Assembly (NCBI GenBank): GCA_035691305.1 | Contig: DASSJF010000002.1 | Coordinates: 1-36,926, forward strand | DNA length: 36,926 nucleotides | Source: a bacterium | GTDB taxonomy: Bacteria > Sysuimicrobiota > Sysuimicrobiia > Sysuimicrobiales > Segetimicrobiaceae | Direction: 5' to 3' | Shown: in pieces, positions 1 to 24,850 of the stretch | How the letters are laid out: every line of letters starts with the position of its first letter | How positions within the stretch are numbered: the first letter of the stretch is position 1 | Notes under the pieces: model-generated | The model's input: only the letters and a program-made list of their open reading frames with translations | Databases searched by the model: none | What the model was told of the DNA's origin: nothing | Translations under genes and position numbers: made by a program

Positions 1-1642
1 CTGCCCCGCCCGCCGGCGCCGACCCCGCCACCGCCGACCCGGCCGACGCCGCGACGGCCGGCGCGAGGCGGCCCCGCCCCTCGCGCTCCATCTCCGCGAA
101 CAGCTTGCGCAGCCGGCCAGCGCCAACTCTGTGAATCTCGCCGACGTGCGTCCGCACCACGTTGTAGCGGAGGTCCGCGGCCAGCATGCCCCACGCCGAC
201 AGCACCGGCGCCTGGCGCGGCACGACGACCCGGCCGATGTCGAGCATCGCCGCCACGGCCGTCGCGTGCAGCCCGGCCGCGCCGCCGAACGCCAGCAGCG
301 CAAAGCGCCGGGGATCGATGCCCCGGCGTACAGACACGACCCGGATGCCTTCCGCCATCGCGGTGTTGACGACGTCGTAGATGCCGCGCGCCGCGTCGAT
401 CGTCGTGCTGCCGAAGCGGCCCGCGATCGCGTCCACCGCCCCGTGCGCCGCCGCCGCATCGAGCCGCCGGCGCCCGCCCCAGAACGTCTCCGGATCGAGA
501 TAGCCGAGCACGACGTTCGCGTCGGTGACCGTGGCGCCGGTGCCGCCTCGCCCATAGCACGCCGGGCCGGGCTCCGCGCCCGCGCTCTCCGGGCCGACGT
601 GCAGGATGCCGCCCGCGTCCACGCGCGCGAGCGAGCCGCCGCCGGCGCCGAGGGTGTGGATGTCGACGCTCGGCATCGCGAGCGTGTGGCCGCTGACGCG
701 GCGGTCGCCGGTCACCCGCGGCCGCCCGTCCTCCAAGAGCGCGATGTCCGTGCTGGTGCCGCCCATGTCGAAGGTAATCAGGTCGCCGTCGCCGAGGAGG
801 CGCGCCGCGTAGCCGCCGCCGGCTACCCCGCCCGCCGGCCCCGAGAGGATCGCGCCCGCGGCGAGCCGCGCCGCTTCCGAGATCGACGCGACGCCGCCGT
901 GCGACTGCATCACGAACACGTGGCGCCGGTACCCCGCCGCGCGGAGGCGCGATCTCAGCCGCGTCAGGTAGCGCTCGAGGGCCGGGCCGACGTAGGCGTT
1001 GATGACCGTCGCGCAGACGCGTTCGTACTCCTTGATCTGCGGCAGCACGTCCCACGACGGTGACACGTAGGCCCGCGGAAGGCGCCGCCGCACCGCGTCT
1101 CGCGTCGCCAGCTCGTGGCGGGGGTTGCGGTAACCGTGCAGGTAGCAGATCGCGACCGAGTCCACGCCGGCGCGCTCGAGCGCGCGGATCGAGCGGTCGA
1201 GCGAAGGCCGCGCGAGCGGCACGGCGACGGTGCCGTCCGCGCGCGTGCGCTCCCGGACGCCGAGCCGAAGCGCCCGCGGCACGAGCGGGACCGGCGGCGG
1301 CATCCGCAGATTGTACCGGTCCGGTTTCAGGCCTTCGCGCATCTCCAGGACGTCGCGATGGCCTTCCGTGGTCAGCAGGCCCACCTTCGCACCGCGCCGT
1401 TCCAGCAGGGCGTTCGTCGCGACCGTTGTGCCGTGGACGATCTGCGACGTGGCGGCGAGCAGCGCGCGGGAATCGACGCCGAGGCGTTCCGCGAGGGTCT
1501 GGATCGCGTCGAGCACGCCGACGGACGGATCGGCCGGGGTAGAGGCGGCCTTCGCGAGCGTGACGGCGCCTGCGCCGTCCACGCAGACGGCGTCCGTGAA
1601 GGTCCCGCCGACGTCGATGCCGATTCGGTAGGACGCGCTCAC
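1..1642 (-). CDS. hyuA: N-methylhydantoinase A / 5-oxoprolinase ATPase-type subunit HyuA, C-terminus cut by window start
   Basis: This is the ATP-binding subunit of the ATP-dependent hydantoinase/oxoprolinase family, which with HyuB opens cyclic amides such as N-methylhydantoin or 5-oxoproline in the cytoplasm. Reading in from the GTG start, residues 7-17 give the family's N-terminal phosphate-binding signature (IGIDVGGTFTD). A second sugar-kinase/Hsp70-like ATPase motif (DMGGTSTDIAL) lies near base 750, and an HTLGAGGGS segment follows. About 547 residues are visible; the family is usually near 680-700, so roughly the last fifth lies outside the window. The GTG start at 1642 overlaps the hyuB stop by 4 bases, implying translational coupling. 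The exact substrate cannot be told from sequence: hydantoinase, oxoprolinase and acetophenone-carboxylase-like members share this architecture. Confidence 0.9.
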   Translation of the reverse strand, partial: MSASYRIGIDVGGTFTDAVCVDGAGAVTLAKAASTPADPSVGVLDAIQTLAERLGVDSRALLAATSQIVHGTTVATNALLERRGAKVGLLTTEGHRDVLEMREGLKPDRYNLRMPPPVPLVPRALRLGVRERTRADGTVAVPLARPSLDRSIRALERAGVDSVAICYLHGYRNPRHELATRDAVRRRLPRAYVSPSWDVLPQIKEYERVCATVINAYVGPALERYLTRLRSRLRAAGYRRHVFVMQSHGGVASISEAARLAAGAILSGPAGGVAGGGYAARLLGDGDLITFDMGGTSTDIALLEDGRPRVTGDRRVSGHTLAMPSVDIHTLGAGGGSLARVDAGGILHVGPESAGAEPGPACYGRGGTGATVTDANVVLGYLDPETFWGGRRRLDAAAAHGAVDAIAGRFGSTTIDAARGIYDVVNTAMAEGIRVVSVRRGIDPRRFALLAFGGAAGLHATAVAAMLDIGRVVVPRQAPVLSAWGMLAADLRYNVVRTHVGEIHRVGAGRLRKLFAEMEREGRGRLAPAVAASAGSAVAGSAPAGGA

Positions 1643-3411
1643 CGGCTCGTCCTGCGCGCGCGGCGCCTCTTTGGCAGGCGAGCCTTTCGCACGCGGGGTT
1701 CCTGCGCACGGCCCCGCCTCGACACGAAGCCGTTGTCGATGTCGGCCGCCCGCGCCGCGGCGTCACGGTACCTGGACGGCCCATAGCCGCCGCCTCCGGA
1801 AGACTCGACCAGGAACAGGTCGCCCGGCTGAACCGGGATGCCAACCTCCTTTGTCCGCAGGATGCGCGTCCGGCCCTTCGAGATGAGCCGGTACCGATGC
1901 ACCGCGCCGTCGCGGCCGCCGAACAGGCCGTAGGGCGCGTGCCGGACGCCGTCGCCCGCGGTGTTCGCCACGGCCGGTGCGGCGGTCTCCGCGCGCATCG
2001 CGAGCTCCGCGCCCACGCCGCCGCGAAACTGCCCGTCGCCGCCGGAGTCCGTCCGGAACTCGTGGCGCTCCATGACGAGCGGAAAACGAACCTCGGTCAC
2101 CTCCACGCTGCCGAACTTGAGCCCGCCCGCGGCTTGGCCTTCGCCGGCCGTCGCCCAGCCGTCGCCCGCGGCGGAGGCGCCGCCGCCCGGCCGCGCGTGG
2201 AACATGTGCCAGATGAACGGCCGGCCGCTGCGCGGATCCGTGCCCCGGATCGCGATCCGGAACCGGCGGCCCCATCCGGCGATCGCGCGCTCAGGACAGG
2301 CCGGGGCGAGGGCCTTGAGCACCGACTCCGCGATCTCCTGGCCGCAGTGGTTCGTGCAGAGCGTGACGGGCGCCGGCGGGCGCGGATGGACGATCGTGCC
2401 TTCCGTCGTCAGCACCGTGACCGGCCGGAAGGTCCCGTCGTTCTTCGGAATGTCGGCGTCGATCAGGTACGCGACCGCCATGTGCACCGCGGACATCGTG
2501 TTCGGCAGCGAGGAATTGACGAAACCCGTGACCTGCGCGTGGCTGCGCCGCAGGTCGACCGTCAGCGCGTCTCCCCGTTTCGTGACGACCGCCCGCACCG
2601 CGATGTCTGTTGCGCCGTGCCCGTCGTCGTCGAGCACCGACTCGCCGGCGTAGACGCCGTCTTTCCACGGCCGGATGCAGGCGCGCGTGCGCCGTTCCGT
2701 GCCGTCGAGGACCTCGCGCAGCGCGTCGAGCAGCGTCTCGACCCCGTACTCTTCCGCGAGCCGGTGCAGCCGCCGCTCGCCGAGCCGCGCGGACCCCATC
2801 GAGGCGCGGAGGTCGCCGAGGAAGTCGCGGGAGTGGCGAACGTTCGTCGCCACCATGTTCAGGACGTCGTCCCGCTCGGTCCCCGCGTCGTACAGCTTGA
2901 GCGGCGGCACCCGCAGGCCTTCCTGCCAGATCTCGGTGGCGGCCGCATTATAGCTGCCGTGCGTCGCCCCGCCGATGTCGCTCTGGTGCGCGCGGTTGAT
3001 TGCCCAGCAGATGAGCCGACGGTCCGCCCGGCCCGCCGTCCCGTTCCCGGCCGGTGCCGCAAAAACCGGCAGGACGACCGTCAGGTCCGGCAGGTGGCTG
3101 CCGCCGCAGTACGGGTCGTTGACCAGGTAGAGATCGCCGGGCCGGATCCGGCCCCGGAAGAATTCGAGCACCGACCGCACCGACCAGGGAAGTGCGCCGA
3201 CGTGGATCGGCACGTGTTCGGCCTGGGCGAGCAGACGTCCGTCCGCGCCGCAGAGGGCGGTAGAGAAGTCGCGGCTGGAGTTCAGGATCTGGGAGTAGGC
3301 GGTGCGGAGCATCGCCTCGCCCATCTCCGCGACGATGGCCGTGAGGCGGTGTTGGACCACGGAAACCGTGATGCGATCGGGGGGGACACGGCCGGTTTCG
3401 GGCACGTCCAC
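1639..3411 (-). CDS. hyuB: N-methylhydantoinase B / oxoprolinase subunit HyuB
   Basis: This is the partner subunit of HyuA, 590 residues and normal to slightly long for the family. The hallmark segment VNDPYCGGSHLPD lies at residues 97-109, preceded by a typical N-terminal stretch (SSRDFSTALC near 45-54). A GGGGYG motif lies near the C-terminus, followed by a strongly basic tail rich in Arg and Lys. The start is the GTG at 3411; no other ATG, GTG or TTG exists upstream in frame before a stop, although the ribosome-binding site is weak. hyuA follows with a 4-base overlap, so the two are one operon transcribed away from the efflux operon on the other strand. The family acts on cyclic amides with ATP hydrolysis; the substrate here is unknown. 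Confidence 0.9.
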   Translation of the reverse strand: MDVPETGRVPPDRITVSVVQHRLTAIVAEMGEAMLRTAYSQILNSSRDFSTALCGADGRLLAQAEHVPIHVGALPWSVRSVLEFFRGRIRPGDLYLVNDPYCGGSHLPDLTVVLPVFAAPAGNGTAGRADRRLICWAINRAHQSDIGGATHGSYNAAATEIWQEGLRVPPLKLYDAGTERDDVLNMVATNVRHSRDFLGDLRASMGSARLGERRLHRLAEEYGVETLLDALREVLDGTERRTRACIRPWKDGVYAGESVLDDDGHGATDIAVRAVVTKRGDALTVDLRRSHAQVTGFVNSSLPNTMSAVHMAVAYLIDADIPKNDGTFRPVTVLTTEGTIVHPRPPAPVTLCTNHCGQEIAESVLKALAPACPERAIAGWGRRFRIAIRGTDPRSGRPFIWHMFHARPGGGASAAGDGWATAGEGQAAGGLKFGSVEVTEVRFPLVMERHEFRTDSGGDGQFRGGVGAELAMRAETAAPAVANTAGDGVRHAPYGLFGGRDGAVHRYRLISKGRTRILRTKEVGIPVQPGDLFLVESSGGGGYGPSRYRDAAARAADIDNGFVSRRGRAQEPRVRKARLPKRRRARRTSR

Positions 3412-11618: not shown

Positions 11619-13229
11619 TTGGCTACGAACGCCGAGGCCATCGCCGCGGTGCTGGCGGACGCCGGCATCGACCACGCTTTCGGACTGCCGGGCGGCGAGA
11701 TCACCGTGCTCATCGAGGCGTGCCGCCGCGCGGGCATCCGATTCTACCTCACGGGCCACGAGGCAAGCGCCGCGTTTATGGCGGATGTGACCGGCCAGAT
11801 CACCGGACGCCCCGGCGTCTGCATGGCGACGCTCGGACCCGGCGCGATGAACCTCGGCCTCGGGGTCGCGAACGCGCTGCTCGACCGCTCGCCGGTCGTG
11901 GCGATCACCGCAGACCTCTCCACCGCGATCGCACCGCATTTCCCGCACCAGCGCCTTCCGCTCGGGCGGCTCTTCGGCGCCATCGCCAAGGCGAGCGCCA
12001 CCGTGGACGGCCGGGGGACCGGCGACCTCGCGCGCCGCGCGATCGCCCTCGCCGCGAGCGCGCCTCCCGGCCCGGTGCACCTTGCGCTGCCGAGCAACCT
12101 CGCCCCGGCCGCGGAGTCCGCCGGCGCGGCCTCCGATCTCGCGCTCCTGCATCCGGGCGGTACGCCGTCTCCGGGCGCGGCCGAGAATTCGGCGCCGGCC
12201 CTCGCCGAAGCCCGGGACCTGCTCGGCGGCGCGGAGCGCCCGCTCATCGTGGTCGGCCTCGGCTGTACCCCGGCCGACGCGCCGGCGCTGCGCGCGTTTG
12301 CGGACCGTACGGGATGGCCCTTCATCGTGACGCCGAAAGCAAAAGGCATGTTACCCGAAGACGGGCCCGGGTTCCTCGGCGTGGTCGGCGGGATGGCGAT
12401 CGACGGCGCCGTGATGGAGACGGTCGAGCAGGCCGATGTCCTGCTGGGCGTGGGCTTCGATCCCGTCGAGTGCGACAAGGACTGGTACGTCCGGAGCCGG
12501 ATCGTGAACCTCTCGCGCGCTTCTACGGCCGAGGGCGCGTACCGGCCGGTCGAACCGCTCGGCGGCATCGCCGAGTCCCTCGCCGCCCTCGGCGGCGTTC
12601 GCCCCCGCCGCTGGTCCGAGTCCGTGCTGGCCGCCGCCCGCGCGCGGATTCGCCCCGAGCCGCTCGCCTTCCCGGACCCCGCGGGGATCAGCCCGCTCGC
12701 CGCGCTGCGCGCGCTGCGCGACGCCGCGCCGCACGACACGGTGCTCACGTGCGACGTGGGCTCGCACAAGTACTACTGCGGGCAGTTCTGGACGTCGTAC
12801 GAGCCGCAGACGTTCTTCATGTCGAACGGACTCTCCGGCATGGGATACGGCGTACCGGCGGCGATCGCGGCCAAGCTGGAGCTCCGCGGGCGCCCCGTGC
12901 TCGCCGTGACCGGCGACGGCGGCCTCTCGATGATGCTGCACAACCTGACGTTCCTTCGTCAGTACGAGGTCGCGGTGACGATCGTCTGCTTCGTCGACGC
13001 GAGCCTCAGCCTGATCCGCGTCGGGCAGCGCCGCCGGGGCTTCGACCCGTACGGCGTCGATTTTCCGCCGCCCCGGTTCGAGGAGATCGCGCGCGGGTTC
13101 GGGATCGAGGGCGTGCGCGCCGAGTCCACGGATGCGCTGCGCCGCGCGGTCGCCGCGGCGTTGGGGTCCGGCCGCCCCGCGGTCATCACCGTGCCGATCG
13201 ACGGCCGGGAATACAATACCTACTGCTGA
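11619..13229 (+). CDS. Thiamine-diphosphate enzyme of the acetolactate synthase / decarboxylase fold
   Basis: This 536-residue ThDP-dependent enzyme has the three-domain IlvB-like plan. The N-terminal Pyr domain has the cofactor-activating Glu E48 in GHEASAAFMAD. A central domain (about 190-325) follows, then a C-terminal PP domain with the metal-binding GDG at 432-434. The second metal-ligand position is Asp (D460 in VDASLSLI) rather than the Asn of typical biosynthetic acetolactate synthases. No small regulatory subunit gene is adjacent, which argues against a dedicated branched-chain biosynthetic enzyme. Members of this fold decarboxylate or ligate 2-oxo acids. The start is TTG with a GGGAGGA site. 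Only 22 bases separate it from the transporter binding-protein gene, so it probably acts on, or downstream of, what that transporter imports. Confidence 0.85.
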   Translation: MATNAEAIAAVLADAGIDHAFGLPGGEITVLIEACRRAGIRFYLTGHEASAAFMADVTGQITGRPGVCMATLGPGAMNLGLGVANALLDRSPVVAITADLSTAIAPHFPHQRLPLGRLFGAIAKASATVDGRGTGDLARRAIALAASAPPGPVHLALPSNLAPAAESAGAASDLALLHPGGTPSPGAAENSAPALAEARDLLGGAERPLIVVGLGCTPADAPALRAFADRTGWPFIVTPKAKGMLPEDGPGFLGVVGGMAIDGAVMETVEQADVLLGVGFDPVECDKDWYVRSRIVNLSRASTAEGAYRPVEPLGGIAESLAALGGVRPRRWSESVLAAARARIRPEPLAFPDPAGISPLAALRALRDAAPHDTVLTCDVGSHKYYCGQFWTSYEPQTFFMSNGLSGMGYGVPAAIAAKLELRGRPVLAVTGDGGLSMMLHNLTFLRQYEVAVTIVCFVDASLSLIRVGQRRRGFDPYGVDFPPPRFEEIARGFGIEGVRAESTDALRRAVAAALGSGRPAVITVPIDGREYNTYC

Positions 13230-13251: not shown

Positions 13252-14832
13252 ATGAAGCGGTTGCGGCGTCGGGAGCTGTTGAGAGAGGGCGCGCTGCGGT
13301 CCGCGGCGGCCGCGGTCGTCGTGGGGTCGGCGCCGTTGGCGATTCTCGGGGCGCCCCGGCGCGCGTCGGCCGCGGTGCCGAGGGAGCAGACCTTCGTCGT
13401 CGCCGACGGCACCGAACCCAACAGCCTCGAGCCCGCGGTCGGCACCGGCCCGTTCCAGGCGATCATGAACGCGATGTACGACGGCTTGGTGACCTGGAAC
13501 AACAAGGGGCAGGTCGTGCCGGCGCTCGCCACCTCGTGGAAGGCGAGCGCCGACGGCCGGAGCTGGACGTTTGGGCTGAGGCCCGGGGTCAGGTTTCATG
13601 ACGGCACGCCCTTCAACGCCGAGGCGGTCCGCGCGACGTTCGACCGGATCTTCGACAAGAGCGTGCCCGCGACGCGCCGCGGCAACTACCTCCTGATCAA
13701 AGAAGTCGCCGCGGTCGACGACCGCACGGTCCGCTTCACAACGGACCCGCCGAATCCGGATTTTCCGCTCTTGATGGCGGACGTCTCGGCGAAGATCATC
13801 AGCCCCGCGGCCGTCAAGCAGTACGGCCAGGACTTCGGCCGCCACCCCGTGGGAACGGGGCCGTTCAAGTTCGAGGAGTGGATCCCGAACGATCACGTCT
13901 CGGCCGCGGCCAACCCGGACTACTGGGGCCCCAAGCCGCGCGTGCGCCGCATCGTCTACCGGCCGATTCCGGAGCCGGCCGCGCGGGTGGTGGTGTTGAA
14001 GACCGGCGAGGCCGACGCCGTGCTCAACCTGCCGCCGGCAGACGTGCCGGCGCTCCGGCAGACGTCGGGCCTTTACCTGCGCGCGGAACCGAGCCAGACG
14101 ATCGCCGAGCTCGAGACGGCCGACACGAAACCGCCGTTCTCCGATGTGCGGGTGCGCCGGGCGCTCAACATCGCAATCGACAAGGACGCGATCATCAAGG
14201 GCATCATGAAGGGCTTCGCCCGGCCGCTCAACAGTCCGGGCGTGCCGGGGCTGTGGGGCAGCTTCGATTTTCCGCCGTTCCACTACGATCCCGAGCGCGC
14301 GAAGCGCATGCTTGCCGAGGCCGGCTACGGTTCCGGCATGCGCGTGACCGTGAATCTCACCAGCGGCCGGTGGGCCGGCGATACGCAGGTCGTGCAGGCC
14401 GTGCAGGGCTACTGGGCCAACGTCGGGGTGCAGATGACGATCCGCGAGATGGCGTTCGCCGATCTGCTGGCGTTCAGCTCCTCCGACCCGGACAACCGTC
14501 CCGGCACCGCGACCTGTCTGCTGAAGGGCAGCCCCTACATCGACTATCACCTCTACCGGATGTACGACTCCGCGGCCACGAACGTCCCCGCGACGCAGCA
14601 GCGGACGGGCTACGCCAACCCGAAGGTCGATGCGCTGATCGCGGCGGAGCGCCGCACGTTCGACCCGGAGAAGCGCCTGCCGATCCTCAAGGAGGCGCAG
14701 CGCCTGGTCTGGGACGACCAGCCGATCGTGTACCTGCTGCAGCTCGTCAACATCTGGGGCGCGCGGAACGGGACGTCGGGCTTCACCGTGCTGCCGACCG
14801 GTGAGTTCGTGCCGGGCCGGCTCGCGCGCTGA
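13252..14832 (+). CDS. Peptide/nickel-type ABC transporter substrate-binding protein (SBP family 5)
   Basis: This 526-residue periplasmic binding protein has DppA/OppA architecture. An RRRELL motif in a positively charged N-terminus, followed by an Ala-rich stretch ending ASAA near residue 41, suggests Tat-type export. The mature part has the family markers SLEPAVGTGPFQ, FGLRPGVRFHDGTPF and GTGPFKFEEW. The start at 13252 has GAGGAGG 8 bases upstream; an in-frame ATG at 13231 lacks a good site. It follows the ThDP enzyme by 22 bases and precedes two permeases. The family binds peptides, but many members take up other amides, opines or glycosides, so the ligand is open. Confidence 0.92.
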   Translation: MKRLRRRELLREGALRSAAAAVVVGSAPLAILGAPRRASAAVPREQTFVVADGTEPNSLEPAVGTGPFQAIMNAMYDGLVTWNNKGQVVPALATSWKASADGRSWTFGLRPGVRFHDGTPFNAEAVRATFDRIFDKSVPATRRGNYLLIKEVAAVDDRTVRFTTDPPNPDFPLLMADVSAKIISPAAVKQYGQDFGRHPVGTGPFKFEEWIPNDHVSAAANPDYWGPKPRVRRIVYRPIPEPAARVVVLKTGEADAVLNLPPADVPALRQTSGLYLRAEPSQTIAELETADTKPPFSDVRVRRALNIAIDKDAIIKGIMKGFARPLNSPGVPGLWGSFDFPPFHYDPERAKRMLAEAGYGSGMRVTVNLTSGRWAGDTQVVQAVQGYWANVGVQMTIREMAFADLLAFSSSDPDNRPGTATCLLKGSPYIDYHLYRMYDSAATNVPATQQRTGYANPKVDALIAAERRTFDPEKRLPILKEAQRLVWDDQPIVYLLQLVNIWGARNGTSGFTVLPTGEFVPGRLAR

Positions 14833-14844
14833 GGGCGGCCGCCC
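14833..14844. repeat. 12-bp GC palindrome between binding-protein and permease genes
   Basis: GGGCGGCCGCCC directly follows the TGA of the binding-protein gene and occupies most of the 18-base gap before the permease ATG at 14851. As a perfect palindrome without a loop it is a weak hairpin former. No convincing ribosome-binding site remains for the permease. It could damp translation or stabilise the upstream message, which would fit the usual excess of binding protein over permease; this is inference. Confidence 0.4.
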
Positions 14845-14850
14845 GGCGCG

Positions 14851-15771
14851 ATGCTCCGCCACATCGCGGAGCGCCTGCTGTGGGCCGTCCCGGTCCTGCT
14901 CGGCGTTTCGCTCATCGTCTTCGGCATCCTGAAGGCGATTCCGGGTGACGCGGCGGCGGTGATGGCCGGCGCCGACGCGACGGCCGCGGACGTGCAGGCG
15001 ATCCGCGTAGCACTCGGGTTGGATCAGCCCGTCTACGTGCAGTACGCCCGCTGGCTCGGGCGGTTCGTGCGGTTCGACCTCGGCCGTTCCGCCGTGACCC
15101 GGCGCCCGGTCGCCTACGAGATCGCAACACGCGTCGGCCCGACCGCCGAGCTTGCCGCGGCGGCGATGGCGTTCGCGGCCGCGGCCGGGCTCACCGCGGG
15201 CATCACGTCCGCCACCCACCAGCACTCCGCGTGGGACGCCGCCGCGTCCGTCGCGACCGCGCTCGGCATCTCGGTGCCGATCTTCTGGCTCGGCCTCATG
15301 CTGATGATGCTGTTCTCGGTGTCGCTGCGCTGGCTGCCGAGCACCGGCGCCGGCACGGCGGCCCAGCTGGTCCTGCCGGCGCTGACCCTCGGCGCGGCGA
15401 CGGCGGCGACGGTCGCGCGCCAGGCCCGCGCCGCGATGCTGGACGTGCTGCGCCAGGACTACCTCCGCACGGCGCTGGCGAAGGGCGTCGCGCGCGGGAC
15501 GCTCGTGCTGCGCCACGCGTTCCGCAACGCCGTCATCCCGATCGTCACCGTGCTCGGCCTGCAGCTCGGGTACCTGCTGGCCGGCACCGTGCTGACGGAG
15601 ACCGTGTTCGCCCGCCCCGGCCTCGGCCGCCTTGTCGTGGACGCGATCCGCACCAGGGACATCGCGGTCGTGCAGGCTACCGTGATGTTGTTCTCCGTCA
15701 CCTTCATCGCCGTCAACCTGGCCGTCGATCTGCTGTACGCCTACCTCGACCCGAGGATCCGCTTTGACTGA
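14851..15771 (+). CDS. dppB: Peptide/nickel-type ABC transporter permease DppB
   Basis: This 306-residue inner-membrane permease has about six helices. The N-terminal RHIAERLLWAVPVLLGVSLIVF segment and GLDQPVYVQYARWLG region are characteristic of DppB/OppB. The cytoplasmic coupling loop (EAA-type, ATPase contact) lies near residues 207-230 with DYLRTALAKGVARG. The last residues DPRIRFD close the family pattern. It pairs with the next gene, which begins inside its last 8 bases. No ATPase genes are adjacent, so the transporter would need ATPases encoded elsewhere. Confidence 0.93.
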   Translation: MLRHIAERLLWAVPVLLGVSLIVFGILKAIPGDAAAVMAGADATAADVQAIRVALGLDQPVYVQYARWLGRFVRFDLGRSAVTRRPVAYEIATRVGPTAELAAAAMAFAAAAGLTAGITSATHQHSAWDAAASVATALGISVPIFWLGLMLMMLFSVSLRWLPSTGAGTAAQLVLPALTLGAATAATVARQARAAMLDVLRQDYLRTALAKGVARGTLVLRHAFRNAVIPIVTVLGLQLGYLLAGTVLTETVFARPGLGRLVVDAIRTRDIAVVQATVMLFSVTFIAVNLAVDLLYAYLDPRIRFD

Positions 15772-16666
15772 ACAGGCGGTTTCCGGCCGTCCCCGATTCG
15801 CGCCCGCCGCGCGCGCGGCCGCGGCGCCGGCGAGTCCGTGGGTCCGCGCGGCGCGCAGCTTCTTCCGCCGGCCGGCGGCGGTGGCGGGGCTCGCGGTGCT
15901 GGTGCTGGCGGTCGTGGTCTCCGCGGCGGCGCCGTGGCTCTCCCCGCACCCGCCCAATCTCGTCGACGTCGCCAACCCCGGAGCGCCGCCGTCGTGGACG
16001 CACCCGCTCGGCACCGACGAGCTCGGCCGGGATATCACGAGCCGGCTGCTGTGGGGCGGGCGCAACACGCTGCTGATCACGCTCGGCGCGGTCGCGCTCG
16101 CGTTCATCGCGGGCTCCGCGCTCGGCGTCGTCGCCGGGTATTACGGCGGGTTCGGCAGCACGGTGATCATGCGCGCCATGGACGTCCTGCTGGCGATCCC
16201 GGGGTTTCTCCTGGCCGTGGCGGTGATCGCCGCGCTCGGCGTGGGGATGGGCAACGTGATCGTCGCGATCGGCATCAACTCGATCCCGCCGTTCGCGCGC
16301 ATCGCGCGCGGGTCGACGCTGCTCGCGCGGCAGGAGGTCTATGTGCAGGCGGCGCAGGCGCTCGGCGCCGGCGAAGGGACGGTCATGATGCGGCACATCT
16401 TCCCGAACATCCTCTCGCCGCTCGTTGTGCAGTCGACGCTGCGCCTCGCGACCGCGATCCTCACGGCCTCCGGGCTGAGCTTCCTCGGCCTCGGCGTGCA
16501 GCCGCCGGCCGCGGAGTGGGGCGCCATGCTGAGCGTCGGCCGCAACTACATCACGAGCAGCCCGCAGCTCGCCGTCATTCCCGGCATGGCGATCCTCGTC
16601 GTGACGCTGGCGTTCAACGTGGTCGGGGACGCCGTGCGGGACGCGCTCGATCCCCGCGAGCTGTAA
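15764..16666 (+). CDS. dppC: Peptide/nickel-type ABC transporter permease DppC
   Basis: This 300-residue second permease has the DppC pattern. It has an N-terminal cytoplasmic tail, a first helix (about 45-63), the conserved HPLGTDELGRDITSRLLWGGR segment region, and a coupling loop near 190-215 with YVQAAQALGAGEG. It ends with VGDAVRDALDPREL, typical of the family. The chosen start is the TTG at 15764, overlapping dppB by 8 bases. A GTG at 15837 is possible but would remove part of the N-terminal tail. It is the last gene of the set and is followed by a convergent hydrolase gene. Confidence 0.92.
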   Translation: MTEQAVSGRPRFAPAARAAAAPASPWVRAARSFFRRPAAVAGLAVLVLAVVVSAAAPWLSPHPPNLVDVANPGAPPSWTHPLGTDELGRDITSRLLWGGRNTLLITLGAVALAFIAGSALGVVAGYYGGFGSTVIMRAMDVLLAIPGFLLAVAVIAALGVGMGNVIVAIGINSIPPFARIARGSTLLARQEVYVQAAQALGAGEGTVMMRHIFPNILSPLVVQSTLRLATAILTASGLSFLGLGVQPPAAEWGAMLSVGRNYITSSPQLAVIPGMAILVVTLAFNVVGDAVRDALDPREL

Positions 16667-16741: not shown

Positions 16742-18412
16742 CTAGCCCAGCCGCTCGAGGCACGCCTCGACGTGCCGGCACGCTTCCTGGATCGCAGCGG
16801 TGACCGCGTTGCGCCCGCGCACGAGGTCCACGCGCAGGAACTTCGCCTCGTCACCGCCGGCCGGCAGCGCGGCGAGGCGTCTCACCGCGGCCAGTCGCGG
16901 CAGAAACGGCGTTTCGAGCGCCGGGTCGTGCGCGAACGGCCCCGTGGAAGTGTAGATCGCCGGGATCAGCGCGCGCCCCACCTGCCGCAGACAGGTGTTG
17001 ATCGACCGCGCGGCGGCCCCGCCTTTGACGTCCACGGCCGCCCGGGTCAACCGGTCGCACAACGCCTCCAGCCGGGCCGCGGCCGCGGGAGCCGGGGCCA
17101 GGTCGAAATCGGGTGCCGCCTGCTGCAGCTCCTCGAGGCTCTTCCGGAGGTCGCGCGCCGCCGCGCCGTAGTCGAGCGGGAGGACCGGATCTTCGAGAAG
17201 GCTTGAGATCGCCCGCACGAAGACCCTGGTGTCGCGCACGAGCCGGGCCGGATCGATTTTGTCGAGCGTGTCGTGCGGTGTGTGCCACCACCAGCCGAGG
17301 CTGCCGTCCGTTTGGTGCGAGACCGAGCCGAGCAGCGACGGCACGCCGGCCCCGAGGAACGACTGGTCGGAGTTGCGGCCCACGCGCTTGGCGTCGAGGA
17401 TCGCGTTCGCGGCCTCTTTCACGGCCCGGATGCCGAGCGGCGCGGTCTCGGGCATCGAGTTGGTTGCGAACGTGTCCGCGTCGACGCCGCCGAGCGAATC
17501 GACGTTGACGTGACAGACGCAGCGCTCGGCGAGCTCGGCCCAGTTTGCGTCGGCGTACCACGCCGACGATGAATAGCGGCCGTGCGAGTGCCCCGACCAA
17601 AACGCGAGCCGCAGCCCCCGCCGGAACCCGGCGCGGTCCGGCGCGAGCACACGCGCCACCTCGAGCATCGCGGCGTTCGCGCTGCCGTTGTCCATCGCGC
17701 CGAGGTACCAGCCGTCGAGGTGGCCGGAGAACAGCACGAACGTCCCGTCCGCCTCGGCGTGGCCCGCCGCGAGATCGCCGATCACGATCGGCGTCCGGGT
17801 CCACCCGGTCTCGACCTCCGCGGTGAATTGGATCTCGATCCGGCCGCGCGCGCAGAGGGCGCGCAGCGCTTCGCCGTCCGCCTTGTCCACGGAGAGCAGG
17901 TGCACCCGCGGCAGCGCGCCCACCGTGCCCTCCGACGGGTTGCCCCAGATCGGCGAGCAGCACATCTCGTGGGCCACGCGGCCGCTGATGCAGACGATCC
18001 CAAGGACGCCGGCCCGGGTCGCGTTGACCGCGTGCGCCGGGGTGGCCCGGCCCTCGACGAGGGCCACCTTACCGGTTGCGCCCGCCGTCGCGTACTCCTC
18101 CGCGGAGCCCTTGCCCGCGTACACGAGTTCCGCGGCGACGGCGTGCCCGCCGGTCGGAACGCCCATCGAATGGGTGATGCACGGCAGGTTGCGCGATTCG
18201 GGCGCGGTGACCCGCAGCGAGGCCGCGCGCGGCAGGCTGATGTAGGCGTCATGCACGATCGTCTGCGCCGCGAAACCGAACGCGCGCAGCCGGTCCTCCA
18301 CGTAGGCCGCGGCCTCGCGCTCGTCCTGCGAGCCGGAGAGGCGGGTCCATCGGGCGATCGTGCGGTTGAACTCGGTGAGTTGGGCCTGCGAAACGGAGTC
18401 GAGGGCGGTCAC
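16742..18412 (-). CDS. M28-like metallohydrolase with PA-type insert and GHSHGRYS motif
   Basis: This 556-residue protein has the M28 aminopeptidase fold with a protease-associated-like insert (about 90-200). Metal-ligand equivalents are visible at H231 (FSGHLDGW), bridging D241 (AMDNGSANAAMLE), D305 (NVDSLGG) and H377 (WWWHTPHDTLDKID). The position normally holding the catalytic Glu-Glu pair (WGAEE-type) reads FWSGHSHGRYSSS at 271-283, so both glutamates are replaced. No signal peptide is evident, so it is probably cytoplasmic. The GTG at 18412 has a strong AGGAGGAGACC leader. It is divergent from a paralogue with the same motif. Hydrolysis of a peptide-like or amide bond is likely but chemically uncertain given the changed site. 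Confidence 0.85.
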   Translation of the reverse strand: MTALDSVSQAQLTEFNRTIARWTRLSGSQDEREAAAYVEDRLRAFGFAAQTIVHDAYISLPRAASLRVTAPESRNLPCITHSMGVPTGGHAVAAELVYAGKGSAEEYATAGATGKVALVEGRATPAHAVNATRAGVLGIVCISGRVAHEMCCSPIWGNPSEGTVGALPRVHLLSVDKADGEALRALCARGRIEIQFTAEVETGWTRTPIVIGDLAAGHAEADGTFVLFSGHLDGWYLGAMDNGSANAAMLEVARVLAPDRAGFRRGLRLAFWSGHSHGRYSSSAWYADANWAELAERCVCHVNVDSLGGVDADTFATNSMPETAPLGIRAVKEAANAILDAKRVGRNSDQSFLGAGVPSLLGSVSHQTDGSLGWWWHTPHDTLDKIDPARLVRDTRVFVRAISSLLEDPVLPLDYGAAARDLRKSLEELQQAAPDFDLAPAPAAAARLEALCDRLTRAAVDVKGGAAARSINTCLRQVGRALIPAIYTSTGPFAHDPALETPFLPRLAAVRRLAALPAGGDEAKFLRVDLVRGRNAVTAAIQEACRHVEACLERLG

Positions 18413-18437
18413 GGTCTCCTCCTTGCGCGGGATCTCC

Positions 18438-18456
18438 CCCGCGTCGGGGACGCGGG
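18438..18456. repeat. Inverted repeat (8-bp arms, GGG loop) between the divergent M28-like genes
   Basis: CCCGCGTC at 18438-18445 and GACGCGGG at 18449-18456 are exact reverse complements around a 3-base loop. The site lies 26 bases upstream of the GTG of the minus-strand hydrolase and about 100 bases upstream of the plus-strand one. It is therefore placed to act as a shared operator or as a leader hairpin of the minus-strand message. A second, weaker pair (CCGGCC and GGCCGG) follows near 18462-18482. Confidence 0.4.
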
Positions 18457-18555
18457 CTTCGCCGGCCGAGGGCTCTGGCCGGGCGTGGCGCTCTTCGACG
18501 CGACGCCAGGGACGCCTCCCGCGGGCTTCGAAGTGCAGAGCCGGAGGTGAGGTCC

Positions 18556-20304
18556 TTGGCGGCTCCTCTGGAAACGGCGGCCGCGGCGGTCCGGCCGGAC
18601 CGGCTCGCCGGCCATCTCGAGTGGTTCGCGGGCGTGCGGCGCGACACGGGCGGGCCCGGCGAGGGCCGGGCGGCCGAGTACATCGCCGGGCAACTGCGCG
18701 ACGCAGGCGTGCCTGTCGAAGTGCACGAGTTCGACGCGTTCCTCAGTTATCCGATCCGGGCGACGCTCCAGGTGCTGGAACCGGAGCGGCTCACGCTCCC
18801 GTGCCTCACGCACTCGTTCGCGCGCTCCACCGGTCCGGACGGCATCGTCGCGGAGCTCGTCGAGGTCGGAGACGGCCGCGTGGAGCAGGGCGCGGGACGC
18901 GCGGCGCTCGTCAACGGCCTGTCGACGCCGGTGACGGTGCTGCGCGCGAGCCGGGCCGGGTGCGCCGCGGTGGTGTTCAGCAACCAGGATCGCGTGATCC
19001 ACAATATGATCGGCACGACGATCTGGGGCACCCCCGACCTCGATCAGGTCGACCGGCTGCCGCAGTGCCCCGCGGTCTCGGTGGACGTCGAGGGTGGCCG
19101 CGCGCTGCGCGGCCTGCTCGGGCGCGGCGGTCCGGTGCGCGTCCGGATCGCGGCGGAGGTCAAGACGGAGTGGCTGCGGTCGCTGCTGCCGGAGGCGACG
19201 ATTCCGGGCACCGGCGCCGGCGGCGCCGACCCGGAGCAGTTCGTGCTGGCCGGCGCGCATTATTGTTCCTGGAATGTCGGGATCACCGACAATGCGGTGG
19301 GGGACGCGTGCCTGCTGGAGGCGGCGCGTCTGCTCTGGGAACACCGCGCGGGGCTCGCCCGCGGCGTCCGGGTCTGCTGGTGGCCGGGCCACTCGCACGG
19401 CCGGTACAGCGGCTCGACGTGGTACGCGGACACCCGGTTCTTCGAGCTCGCCGACCGATGCCTCGCCTACTACAATGTCGACTCGCCGGGCGTGCGCGGC
19501 GCCACGCGGTACGTCGCGCGCAACACGACCGCGGACATCGAACGGTTTGCAAAGGCGATGATCACGCGCACGGTGGGCGCGACGGATCCGCCGGCCCACC
19601 GCCCGGCGCGGGCGGCCGACCAGTCGTTTCTGCCCAACGGCGTCTCGTCGTTTTCGATCTACCCGTTCCTGCCCGAAGACCACCCGGACTTTCGCGGATG
19701 GACGGGCGGGTCGGCCAACGCCTGGTGGTGGCACACGGACTTCGACACGCTCGAAAAGGCGGACTCGGCGGTCCTCGCGACCGACACGCGTATCGCGGTG
19801 ACGGCGGTCGGCGAGCTCGCGAACGCGCGCGTGTTGCCGCTCTCGCCGGGCGACACGGGCGAGGAGATCCGGAAGGCCGTGTCGGACCTGCAGCCCGGGC
19901 TCGGGACCCATCTCGATCTGCGGCCGCTCGTCGCCGACGCCGACGCGTTCATCGCGGCCGCGCGGAGTCTCGACGAGGCGCGAGACCGTCCCGGCGCCCC
20001 GCTCTCGACGCGGCGCCTCAACACGGCGCTCCTGCGCCTCAGCCGGATCCTGAACCCGGTCGTCTACAGTCGCCGCGGGCGGTTCTTCCACGACCCGGCG
20101 GAGTGGTCGCCGATCATGCGGGCGAGCGGGCGCTACGTGCTGCCGGGCCTCACGCCGGCCGCGGCGCTGCCGTCTCTCGCGGGCACCCGCGATTACGGAT
20201 TCCTGCGCGCGCAGCTGCGGCGCGAGTGCAACCGCATCCGCGCGGCGCTGCGCGAAGGAACCGGGCTGGCGGCCGGCGTCGCCGAGCGGCTCGGCCGGAC
20301 CTAG
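18556..20304 (+). CDS. M28-like metallohydrolase paralogue with GHSHGRYS motif
   Basis: This 582-residue paralogue is the divergent neighbour of the preceding hydrolase and shares its layout: M28 core with an inserted PA-like domain. With the TTG start, ligand equivalents are H235 (AGAHYCSW), D245 (GITDNAVGD), D309 (NVDSPG) and H393 (WWWHTDFDTLEKAD). The normal Glu-Glu motif is again replaced, by WWPGHSHGRYSGSTWY at about 275-290. The TTG at 18556 has GGAGG 8 bases upstream; a GTG at 18547 is in frame but its site is too close. The mid-region differs from the sister protein (EWLRSLLPEATIPGTG), suggesting different substrates. Its stop is 4 bases from the convergent dehydrogenase gene. Confidence 0.85.
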   Translation: MAAPLETAAAAVRPDRLAGHLEWFAGVRRDTGGPGEGRAAEYIAGQLRDAGVPVEVHEFDAFLSYPIRATLQVLEPERLTLPCLTHSFARSTGPDGIVAELVEVGDGRVEQGAGRAALVNGLSTPVTVLRASRAGCAAVVFSNQDRVIHNMIGTTIWGTPDLDQVDRLPQCPAVSVDVEGGRALRGLLGRGGPVRVRIAAEVKTEWLRSLLPEATIPGTGAGGADPEQFVLAGAHYCSWNVGITDNAVGDACLLEAARLLWEHRAGLARGVRVCWWPGHSHGRYSGSTWYADTRFFELADRCLAYYNVDSPGVRGATRYVARNTTADIERFAKAMITRTVGATDPPAHRPARAADQSFLPNGVSSFSIYPFLPEDHPDFRGWTGGSANAWWWHTDFDTLEKADSAVLATDTRIAVTAVGELANARVLPLSPGDTGEEIRKAVSDLQPGLGTHLDLRPLVADADAFIAAARSLDEARDRPGAPLSTRRLNTALLRLSRILNPVVYSRRGRFFHDPAEWSPIMRASGRYVLPGLTPAAALPSLAGTRDYGFLRAQLRRECNRIRAALREGTGLAAGVAERLGRT

Positions 20305-22886: not shown

Positions 22887-23753
22887 GTGGCGAAGCATCT
22901 GGTCTGCCTGACGTTTGATTTCGACGCGATCTCGATCTGGGTCCGGCGCGGTCAGACGACGCCGACGGCGCTGTCGCGCGGCGAGTTTGGCGTCGTCGGC
23001 GCCGAGCGCATCCTCGATCTGCTGCGCGCCCGCCGCATTCCGGCGACCTGGTTCATCCCCGGCCACACGCTCGACACCTATCCGGACACCTGCCGGCGCA
23101 TCCACGCGGAGGGCCACGAGATCGCGCATCATGGCTATCTCCACGAGCCGCCGGCCACGCTCGCCCGCGACGATGAGGACCGCGTGCTCGTCCGCGGCCT
23201 CGAGGCGATTCGGCGCATCACCGGCGGCGCGCCGAAAGGCTACCGCTCGCCGTCGTGGGATCTCAGCCCGCACACCATCCCGCTCCTGCTCGCCCACGGC
23301 TTCGCCTACGACTCGAGCATGATGGCGCACGACCACCTGCCGTACCGCGCGCGTCAGGGCGACGAGGTCGGGCCGGACGGGGCCGTGCGCTGGGGCGGGG
23401 TGACGCCGCTCATCGAGATGCCGGTGTCGTGGTCCCTTGACGACTATCCCGTGTTCGAGCGGTTTTCCGGCCCGAACGGCATTTCGCCCGGGTTGATGCC
23501 GGCGGCCGGGGTGCTCGACAACTGGGTCGACGACTTCCGCTACATGGCGCGCGAGGCGGAGTGGGGTGTGCTGACCTACACCTTTCACCCGCAGGTCAGC
23601 GGCCGGGGCCACCGGATGCTGACGATCGAACGGCTGATCGACGCCACGCGCGATCTCGGCGCGACGTTCGCACGCATGGACGAAGCCGCGGCCGAATTCG
23701 CTGCGCGCGACCGCGGCACCGGCGCCGCTGGGGCCCGGGGGCCGGCGCGATGA
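22887..23753 (+). CDS. Polysaccharide-deacetylase-family amidohydrolase (PgdA/PuuE/cyclic-imidase type)
   Basis: This 288-residue metal-dependent hydrolase is from the NodB/CE4 superfamily. Motif 1 is TFDFDA (D11, D13), the zinc-binding motif is H82-GYL-H86 within HEIAHHGYLHE, and motif 3 is RSPSWDLS. No signal peptide is present, so it is cytoplasmic and unlikely to act on the cell wall. The compact cytoplasmic members related to Helicobacter PgdA, PuuE allantoinase and bacterial cyclic imidases hydrolyse small cyclic amides or imides. That activity would fit the nearby hydantoinase genes. The start is GTG at 22887. It overlaps the enolase gene by 4 bases. The substrate is inferred only from family and neighbourhood. 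Confidence 0.85.
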   Translation: MAKHLVCLTFDFDAISIWVRRGQTTPTALSRGEFGVVGAERILDLLRARRIPATWFIPGHTLDTYPDTCRRIHAEGHEIAHHGYLHEPPATLARDDEDRVLVRGLEAIRRITGGAPKGYRSPSWDLSPHTIPLLLAHGFAYDSSMMAHDHLPYRARQGDEVGPDGAVRWGGVTPLIEMPVSWSLDDYPVFERFSGPNGISPGLMPAAGVLDNWVDDFRYMAREAEWGVLTYTFHPQVSGRGHRMLTIERLIDATRDLGATFARMDEAAAEFAARDRGTGAAGARGPAR

Positions 23754-24850
23754 GGGTTACGGGCGGCGAGGCGGCGTGCTACCGCATCCGCCTGCGGGAG
23801 CCCTGGCAGAGCTCGAGCCACGTCATCAGCGTGTTTGAGCTCGTTACCGCGCGCCTGCGGACGGACACGGGGCGCGAGGGGGTGGGATGGGCGTTTACCG
23901 TCGGCGCCGGCGGGACGGCCATCACGTCGTTCCTCAATGACGACCTTCTGCCGAAGGCCGGGGGACTGGACCCGGCGCTTGTCGAGCGCGCGTGGAGCAC
24001 GCTGCACGGCACCGTGCGCGACGCCGCGCCCGGCGGCCTCGCGCTTCTGGGGCTGTCGGCGGTGGATATCGCGCTCTGGGACCTCAAAGCGCAGGCGGCC
24101 GGCGAGCCGCTGTACCGCCTGCTGGGCGGCGCGCGCGACCGGGCCGAGGCGTACGGCAGCGGCATCAACCTCAACCTGCCGGTCCCGGCGCTGCTCGCGC
24201 AGTTTCGCCGCTGGCGGGCGCGCGGCTTCCGCGCGTTCAAGATGAAGGTCGGCTCCGACGACGCGCGCGTCGACGTCGAGCGCGTACGCGCCGTTCGCGA
24301 GGAGATCGGGCCGGACGCGGTGCTGATGCTGGACGCGAACCAGAAGTGGACGGCGGGAGAGGCGGCCGGGCGGATCCGCGCGTTCGAGCCGTACGACCCG
24401 TACTGGATCGAGGAGCCCCTGCCGGCGGAGGACGTGGCCGGCCACGCCTGGCTGCGCGCGCGGGTGCGGTGCCCGATCGCGCTCGGCGAGAACCTTTTCT
24501 CCGCGGCGGCGTTCAACGAGTTTCTGCGGCACGGCGCCGTCGACGTCGTCCAGCCGGACGTCGTGCGGGTCGGCGGCATCACGCCGTTCCTCAAGATCGC
24601 GCACCTCGCCGAGGGCTACGGCATCCCGACCGCGCCGCACCTGGTGCTGGAGCTGTCGGGACAGCTCTGCTGCGCGATCCGCCACGCGTCGATGATCGAG
24701 GACCTCGACGGCGGCAACCTGCTTGACCTCGAAGCGCTCGAGGACCCGATTCACACCCAGGACGGGTACTTTACGCCGCCGGCCCGGCCGGGTCACGGGG
24801 TGCGGTTCAACTGGGACGCGCTCGCGCGCTGGAGGGCCGGCCGTGGGTGA
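23750..24850 (+). CDS. Enolase-superfamily enzyme, mandelate racemase / sugar-acid dehydratase type
   Basis: This 366-residue enzyme abstracts the proton next to a carboxylate, leading to racemisation or dehydration. The full catalytic set of the mandelate racemase subgroup is present: K164-x-K166 (FKMKVG), metal ligands D195, E221 and E247 (LDANQ, IEEP, GEN), and the D270/H297 dyad (QPDVVRVGG, APHLVLE). The RVGGITPFLKI stretch and the IEEP-to-GEN region recall talarate/galactarate dehydratases more than muconate cycloisomerases, which use a second Lys instead of the His. It is coupled to the deacetylase gene by a 4-base overlap and to the SDR gene by 8 bases. A hydroxy-acid or amide-derived acid substrate is plausible; the exact one is unknown. 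Confidence 0.9.
   Translation: MRVTGGEAACYRIRLREPWQSSSHVISVFELVTARLRTDTGREGVGWAFTVGAGGTAITSFLNDDLLPKAGGLDPALVERAWSTLHGTVRDAAPGGLALLGLSAVDIALWDLKAQAAGEPLYRLLGGARDRAEAYGSGINLNLPVPALLAQFRRWRARGFRAFKMKVGSDDARVDVERVRAVREEIGPDAVLMLDANQKWTAGEAAGRIRAFEPYDPYWIEEPLPAEDVAGHAWLRARVRCPIALGENLFSAAAFNEFLRHGAVDVVQPDVVRVGGITPFLKIAHLAEGYGIPTAPHLVLELSGQLCCAIRHASMIEDLDGGNLLDLEALEDPIHTQDGYFTPPARPGHGVRFNWDALARWRAGRG

Follow-up and report, generated by a model that had tools for sequence, protein, structure and literature searches.

The divergent gene pair and its surroundings

The window is a 36,926-nucleotide stretch of DNA from a bacterium of the Segetimicrobiaceae (phylum Sysuimicrobiota), and all positions given here refer to it. 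Two divergent genes in the window encode M28-like proteins, as established by ORF calls, Pfam, AlphaFold (AF2) models and Foldseek. P0001, on the reverse strand at 16742-18412, is a soluble three-domain protein of 556 aa that resembles glutamate carboxypeptidase II (GCPII). P0002, on the forward strand at 18547-20304, is a deeply diverged paralogue of 585 aa, and the two are 37% identical. Both pass the curated cut-off of 21.3 bits for Pfam Peptidase_M28 (PF04389), P0001 with 68.7 bits and P0002 with 51.0 bits. The genes are separated by a 134-bp intergenic region (18413-18546), in which a promoter scan found no sigma-70-like site.

Each protein carries a GHSHGRY motif, which reads FWSGHSHGRYSSSAWYAD in P0001 and WWPGHSHGRYSGSTWYAD in P0002. 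Pattern matching places the motif codons at 17573-17593 on the reverse strand for P0001 and at 19387-19407 on the forward strand for P0002. The central motif residues are H275-S276-H277 of P0001, within WSGHSHGRYSSSAWYAD, and H282-S283-H284 of P0002, within WPGHSHGRYSGSTWYAD. When the motif was back-translated and used as a search pattern, five copies were found in the 3.58 Mb genome, while the reversed control gave 0. The five copies are the pair in the window, another pair on contig 41 and a single copy on contig 54. M28 proteins with the Glu-Glu pair are also encoded in the same genome. Compared with the nearest congener, dN/dS is 0.15 for P0001 and 0.14 for P0002, with a dS of about 0.6, and both genes are real ORFs under purifying selection. 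The earlier claim that the change in the motif was selected, not decayed, is borne out by these ratios, by the 5 versus 0 pattern matches and by strict conservation in the family; the same three lines of evidence rule out a chance or frameshift origin of the motif. No signal peptide or strongly hydrophobic N-terminus was found in P0001, P0002 or eleven relatives whose starts are annotated, whereas the three periplasmic binding proteins that served as controls do show strongly hydrophobic N-termini.

A peptide-type ABC importer adjoins the pair (13252-16666). It consists of a DppA/GsiB-type periplasmic binding protein (13252-14832, Pfam SBP_bac_5), a DppB-type permease (14851-15771) and a DppC-type permease (15764-16666), all on the forward strand; the two permeases were assigned as ORFs with homologues near relatives of the pair. 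Upstream of the importer, at 11619-13229, is an acetolactate-synthase-like ThDP enzyme that falls below every NCBIfam cut-off shown. The divergent pair is conserved in two congeners, along with the DppABC, ThDP-enzyme, dehydrogenase and enolase-family genes that flank it, and two members of a different genus of the family show the same divergent arrangement. At 22887-24850, genes of the polysaccharide-deacetylase family (weakly PuuE allantoinase-like) and of the enolase superfamily also keep their synteny with the pair in congeners. Homologues of hydantoinase/oxoprolinase A (HyuA, 146-1630) and B (HyuB, 1903-3378) were detected on the reverse strand by tblastn, with 44% and 28% identity. These hydantoinase genes (146-3378) lie more than 13 kb from the pair, with unrelated genes between.

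Predicted fold and the changed catalytic positions

The AF2 models have a pLDDT of 95.9 for P0001 and 91.0 for P0002, and they are similar to each other. In Foldseek searches, both models group with GCPII, NAALADL and transferrin receptor at a TMq of about 0.8, near full length and with 14-19% identity. P0001 matches human GCPII with a TMq of 0.81 and 15-18% identity. NAALADL is the best match of P0002, and at the sequence level, too, the C-terminal part of P0002 matches the helical domain of NAALADL. Protease, apical and C-terminal helical domains, the M28B domain set, were all found in both models. The two proteins are thus predicted to have the three-domain GCPII/transferrin-receptor fold.

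In GCPII, the zinc ligands are His377, Asp387, Asp453, Glu425 and His553, and Glu424 is the proton shuttle (PMC10794815). The catalytic motif of M28 enzymes, xEE, combines a Glu base with a Glu ligand (PMC7804941). The positions in P0001 were assigned with a MAFFT alignment of 153 homologues, with hhalign against Glu-Glu M28 proteins of the same phylum and with hmmsearch against PDB/GCPII chains. All three place H275 on Glu424, S276 on Glu425 and H277 on the hydrophobic residue that follows Glu425, and all three align H231, D241, D305 and H377 with the remaining four GCPII ligands. One extra residue is present after the motif Gly relative to GCPII. P0001 and P0002 therefore have His-Ser where xEE has Glu-Glu, and both keep the other four ligands (His, bridging Asp, Asp and His), which are H238, D248, D312 and H396 in P0002. 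The first-pass annotation had placed GHSHGRYS at the Glu-Glu site of two M28-like ORFs and had listed four retained ligand positions. Both points are confirmed, the former by the ORF coordinates, the Pfam M28 matches and the three alignments. In P0002 and a few relatives, the residue two positions after the first His ligand is Cys (HYC) in place of Asp; the chemistry of this clade may diverge further.

Two other explanations of the motif were tried and rejected. If the alignment were shifted by one residue, Ser and His277 would fall on Glu424 and Glu425. All three methods give an ungapped motif, in agreement with the AF2 model of P0001, where strand 266-272 leads into a short helix (275-278). 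A shift is also contradicted by relatives of the GHET type, whose Glu lands exactly on Glu425. The motif is not assigned as helix in the model of P0002. A compensating Glu pair elsewhere in the protein is ruled out by Glu conservation in an 82-row alignment. The only invariant Glu is E31; the nearly invariant ones include E251, which is also present in ordinary M28 proteins. A second Glu pair at the catalytic positions, which would have spoken against the earlier proposal, was not found in the alignment.

P0001 and P0002 share with the human M28B proteins GCPII, GCPIII and NAALADL the three-domain architecture (protease, apical/PA and helical dimerisation domains) and four of the five metal ligands. 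They differ from them by the replacement of Glu424 with His and of Glu425 with Ser, by the one-residue insertion, by the lack of a membrane anchor or signal peptide and by their bacterial and archaeal catabolic context. Among the best PDB sequence matches for P0001 are the Aneurinibacillus aminopeptidase (2ek8) and YwaD (6hc6), which have the M28 core and PA domain in common with it but possess the Glu-Glu pair and are without a C-terminal helical domain. The same three-domain fold occurs in transferrin receptor 1, a non-enzymatic receptor. Unlike that receptor, which has lost the metal ligands and carries a membrane anchor, P0001 and P0002 retain four ligands and look soluble. Glutaminyl cyclases have the M28 fold and a single zinc held by Asp, Glu and His; in P0001 and P0002, Ser stands where the Glu ligand would be.

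Relatives, motif types and gene linkage

A scan of GTDB genomes found at least 454 loci of the family, in Alphaproteobacteria, Chloroflexi, Bacillota, haloarchaea and Deinococcus. GHSH[G/A]RY is present in 80/80 of the best 80 of these 454 loci, a count that is biased since GHSH was contained in one of the two search patterns. Searches with the full-length proteins, which were not seeded by the motif, gave matches at E <= 1e-20 in 32/43 genomes of the phylum. They also matched 60 plasmid records, including those of rhizobia, Ketogulonicigenium, Deinococcus and haloarchaea. The pair had been presented as a distinctive oddity, and this view does not hold. P0001 and P0002 belong to a widespread family with graded motifs (Glu-Glu, His-Glu and His-Ser). 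No published account of the motif was found in the literature searched, which left out most subscription papers. An uncharacterised subfamily name in MEROPS or CDD may already exist. Annotated records of relatives carry the product name "M28 family peptidase."

Among the 153 collected homologues, 146 have His in the Glu424 column, and these 146 form the set of relatives considered here. The M28B proton shuttle is thus replaced by His in 146/146. Their motifs are of three types: 119 HSH, 19 HS[T/Q] and 8 HE[T/N/V/Q], so that the Glu425 position holds Glu in 8 and Ser in 138. The ligand positions H231, D241, D305 and H377 are retained in at least 144/146. R279-Y280 occurs in 138/138 Ser forms, and Arg in 0/8 Glu forms. 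Both new histidines had been suggested as residues that could reshape the metal site. Only the first is invariant across the wider family; the second is Thr or Gln in 19/138 Ser forms, which rules out two essential histidines. The GHET, AHEN and GHEQ sister forms (L140-L143, L139, L198 and L200, all unnamed) share this architecture and likewise have His in place of the Glu base. They differ in that the metal-ligand Glu is kept and the following Arg is absent. In one AHENG-type relative (L171 / L139, G007:C140), the last His ligand, GCPII His553, is replaced by Gln, and this relative is a possible truly inactive branch. Two Chloroflexi sequences (L012 and L013) combine GHSHARY with Glu at the D305 ligand position.

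A tree of 94 rows was built in quick mode with the motif columns removed. The Glu-Glu proteins lie outside, the HE forms branch next and the HS forms follow; the fine order is uncertain because one HE row (L200) sits on a long branch and several forks stay open. P0002, represented by its 66% orthologue L161 and not a row itself, falls in a clade separate from that of P0001. A simple reading of these groupings is that Glu-Glu would have changed to His-Glu and then to His-Ser, with R279-Y280 gained together with the Ser.

Gene linkage was examined for the best 80 of the 454 loci. An M20 gene is present at 39/80, mostly within 1.5 kb, one of the tested importer types at 44/80 and HyuA at 7/80. 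The start of the M28 gene overlaps the stop of the M20 gene by 8 bp in R. etli, A. vitis and Shinella, where a divergent GntR gene lies upstream. The R. etli M20 protein belongs to the TIGR01891 amidohydrolase subfamily, and downstream of the M28 gene R. etli and Shinella have an amino-acid importer. The Ketogulonicigenium cluster contains hydantoinase A/B, two M20 genes and an IclR regulator; that of Acuticoccus contains hydantoinase A/B, two M20 genes, a GntR regulator, an Asp/Glu racemase and an importer. Asp/Glu racemase-family genes lie beside or near the M28 gene at L198, L199, L201, L202 and L204 (Acuticoccus, Pantoea, Nitratireductor and haloarchaea). Within the phylum, a DppB or DppC homologue was found within several kb at 11/13 inspected loci of relatives, often only 30-50% identical to those of the window, and some of these loci are orthologous. 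The 3.58 Mb genome encodes about 60 permeases of the DppB type (70 matches, some of them split), an extreme expansion of peptide-type importers. About one gene in six is expected by chance to lie within 5 kb of a DppB copy. Because of these many copies, the importer linkage is weaker evidence here. Taken together, the importer and M20 linkage suggests that imported amides are hydrolysed ahead of a second amidohydrolase step. An amide-like context had been proposed from the adjacent importer and an adjacent hydantoinase. The importer is indeed adjacent and amide-type genes are common near relatives, but the hydantoinase is not adjacent.

Proposed function and its alternatives

The reading we prefer, with about even confidence, is that P0001 and P0002 are active metallo-amide hydrolases of the cytoplasm, which descend from M28B di-zinc peptidases and act on imported small amides with His as the base. 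The fold family, the aligned substitutions and their conservation, the grouping of motifs on the tree, purifying selection, the absence of a signal peptide and the importer/amidohydrolase linkage come directly from the analysis; activity, the role of His, the metal number, the role of Arg and the substrate class are inferred. Small amide or peptide-like compounds would enter through the neighbouring DppABC-type importer and be cleaved in the cytoplasm. Metal site 1 (H231, D241 and D305) is intact, and the invariant His275, in place of the proton-shuttle Glu, would serve as general base/acid. Site 2 is short of one ligand. With Glu425 replaced by Ser276 and the new Arg279-Tyr280, this site may have disappeared, become weaker or been rebuilt with, for instance, water, H377 or H277; Arg279 may bind a substrate carboxylate. 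More tentatively, the Glu-to-His base swap may have been followed by loss of the second ligand, which would leave a new centre, possibly with a single metal held by His-Asp-Asp, that uses His as its base and acts in the cytoplasm on non-peptide amides. Histone deacetylases have a His-Asp-Asp site with a His base, and the likeness to them would be one of logic, not homology.

Several findings count against an active hydrolase. PDB titles call the GCPII mutants E424A and E424M inactive, so loss of this Glu can abolish the reaction. The joint loss of the base and a metal ligand is also the pattern expected of a pseudoenzyme, and P0002 is without the usual Asp after its first His ligand. It is conceivable, if rather improbable, that the proteins are non-catalytic and have a ligand-binding or regulatory role comparable to that of the transferrin receptor, one of the best structural matches. 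However, four ligands and His275 are essentially invariant across several phyla and both prokaryotic domains, the genes lie within catabolic clusters and sometimes overlap an M20 gene, and a signal peptide and membrane anchor are absent. An ordinary M28 aminopeptidase or carboxypeptidase with neutral variation in its motif would explain the Pfam scores and the product names of annotated relatives, but we give this very little credence, as the motif is fixed and coupled to R279-Y280 and replacement of Glu424 inactivates GCPII according to the same titles.

Among readings that keep catalysis, His275 could be a metal ligand in place of Glu425, with a metal-bound hydroxide or Tyr280 as the base of what would still be a hydrolase. 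Ser276 is a poor substitute for the Glu ligand, and the adjacent invariant His could serve. We nevertheless consider this unlikely: the HET sister forms hold His275 together with the Glu ligand, and since the His is not tied to ligand loss, a replacement base is favoured over a replacement ligand. It is also doubtful that the scaffold supports another chemistry, namely lyase, cyclase or transferase activity with His275 removing a proton from a carbon or nitrogen atom; the enzyme would then act in pathways that also involve hydantoinases, Asp/Glu-type racemases and M20 enzymes. Such a role fits the loci where genes for hydantoinase A/B, Asp/Glu racemase and M20 lie nearby, and the M28-fold glutaminyl cyclases indicate that the fold is capable of other chemistry. 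Still, the hydrolase metal ligands are preserved, and racemase and hydantoinase genes are absent at many loci.

Public records label these proteins as M28 family peptidases, yet the key M28 catalytic residue is absent in every member examined. If the proteins are inactive, hundreds of annotations are wrong. The genomic context points to an undescribed use of imported amide-like compounds by soil and rhizosphere bacteria and haloarchaea. If the proteins are active, the family would be an experiment of nature on how a di-zinc peptidase centre can be rebuilt, from Glu-Glu through His-Glu to His-Ser, with the intermediates still living and on the fold of GCPII/PSMA, a major drug target.
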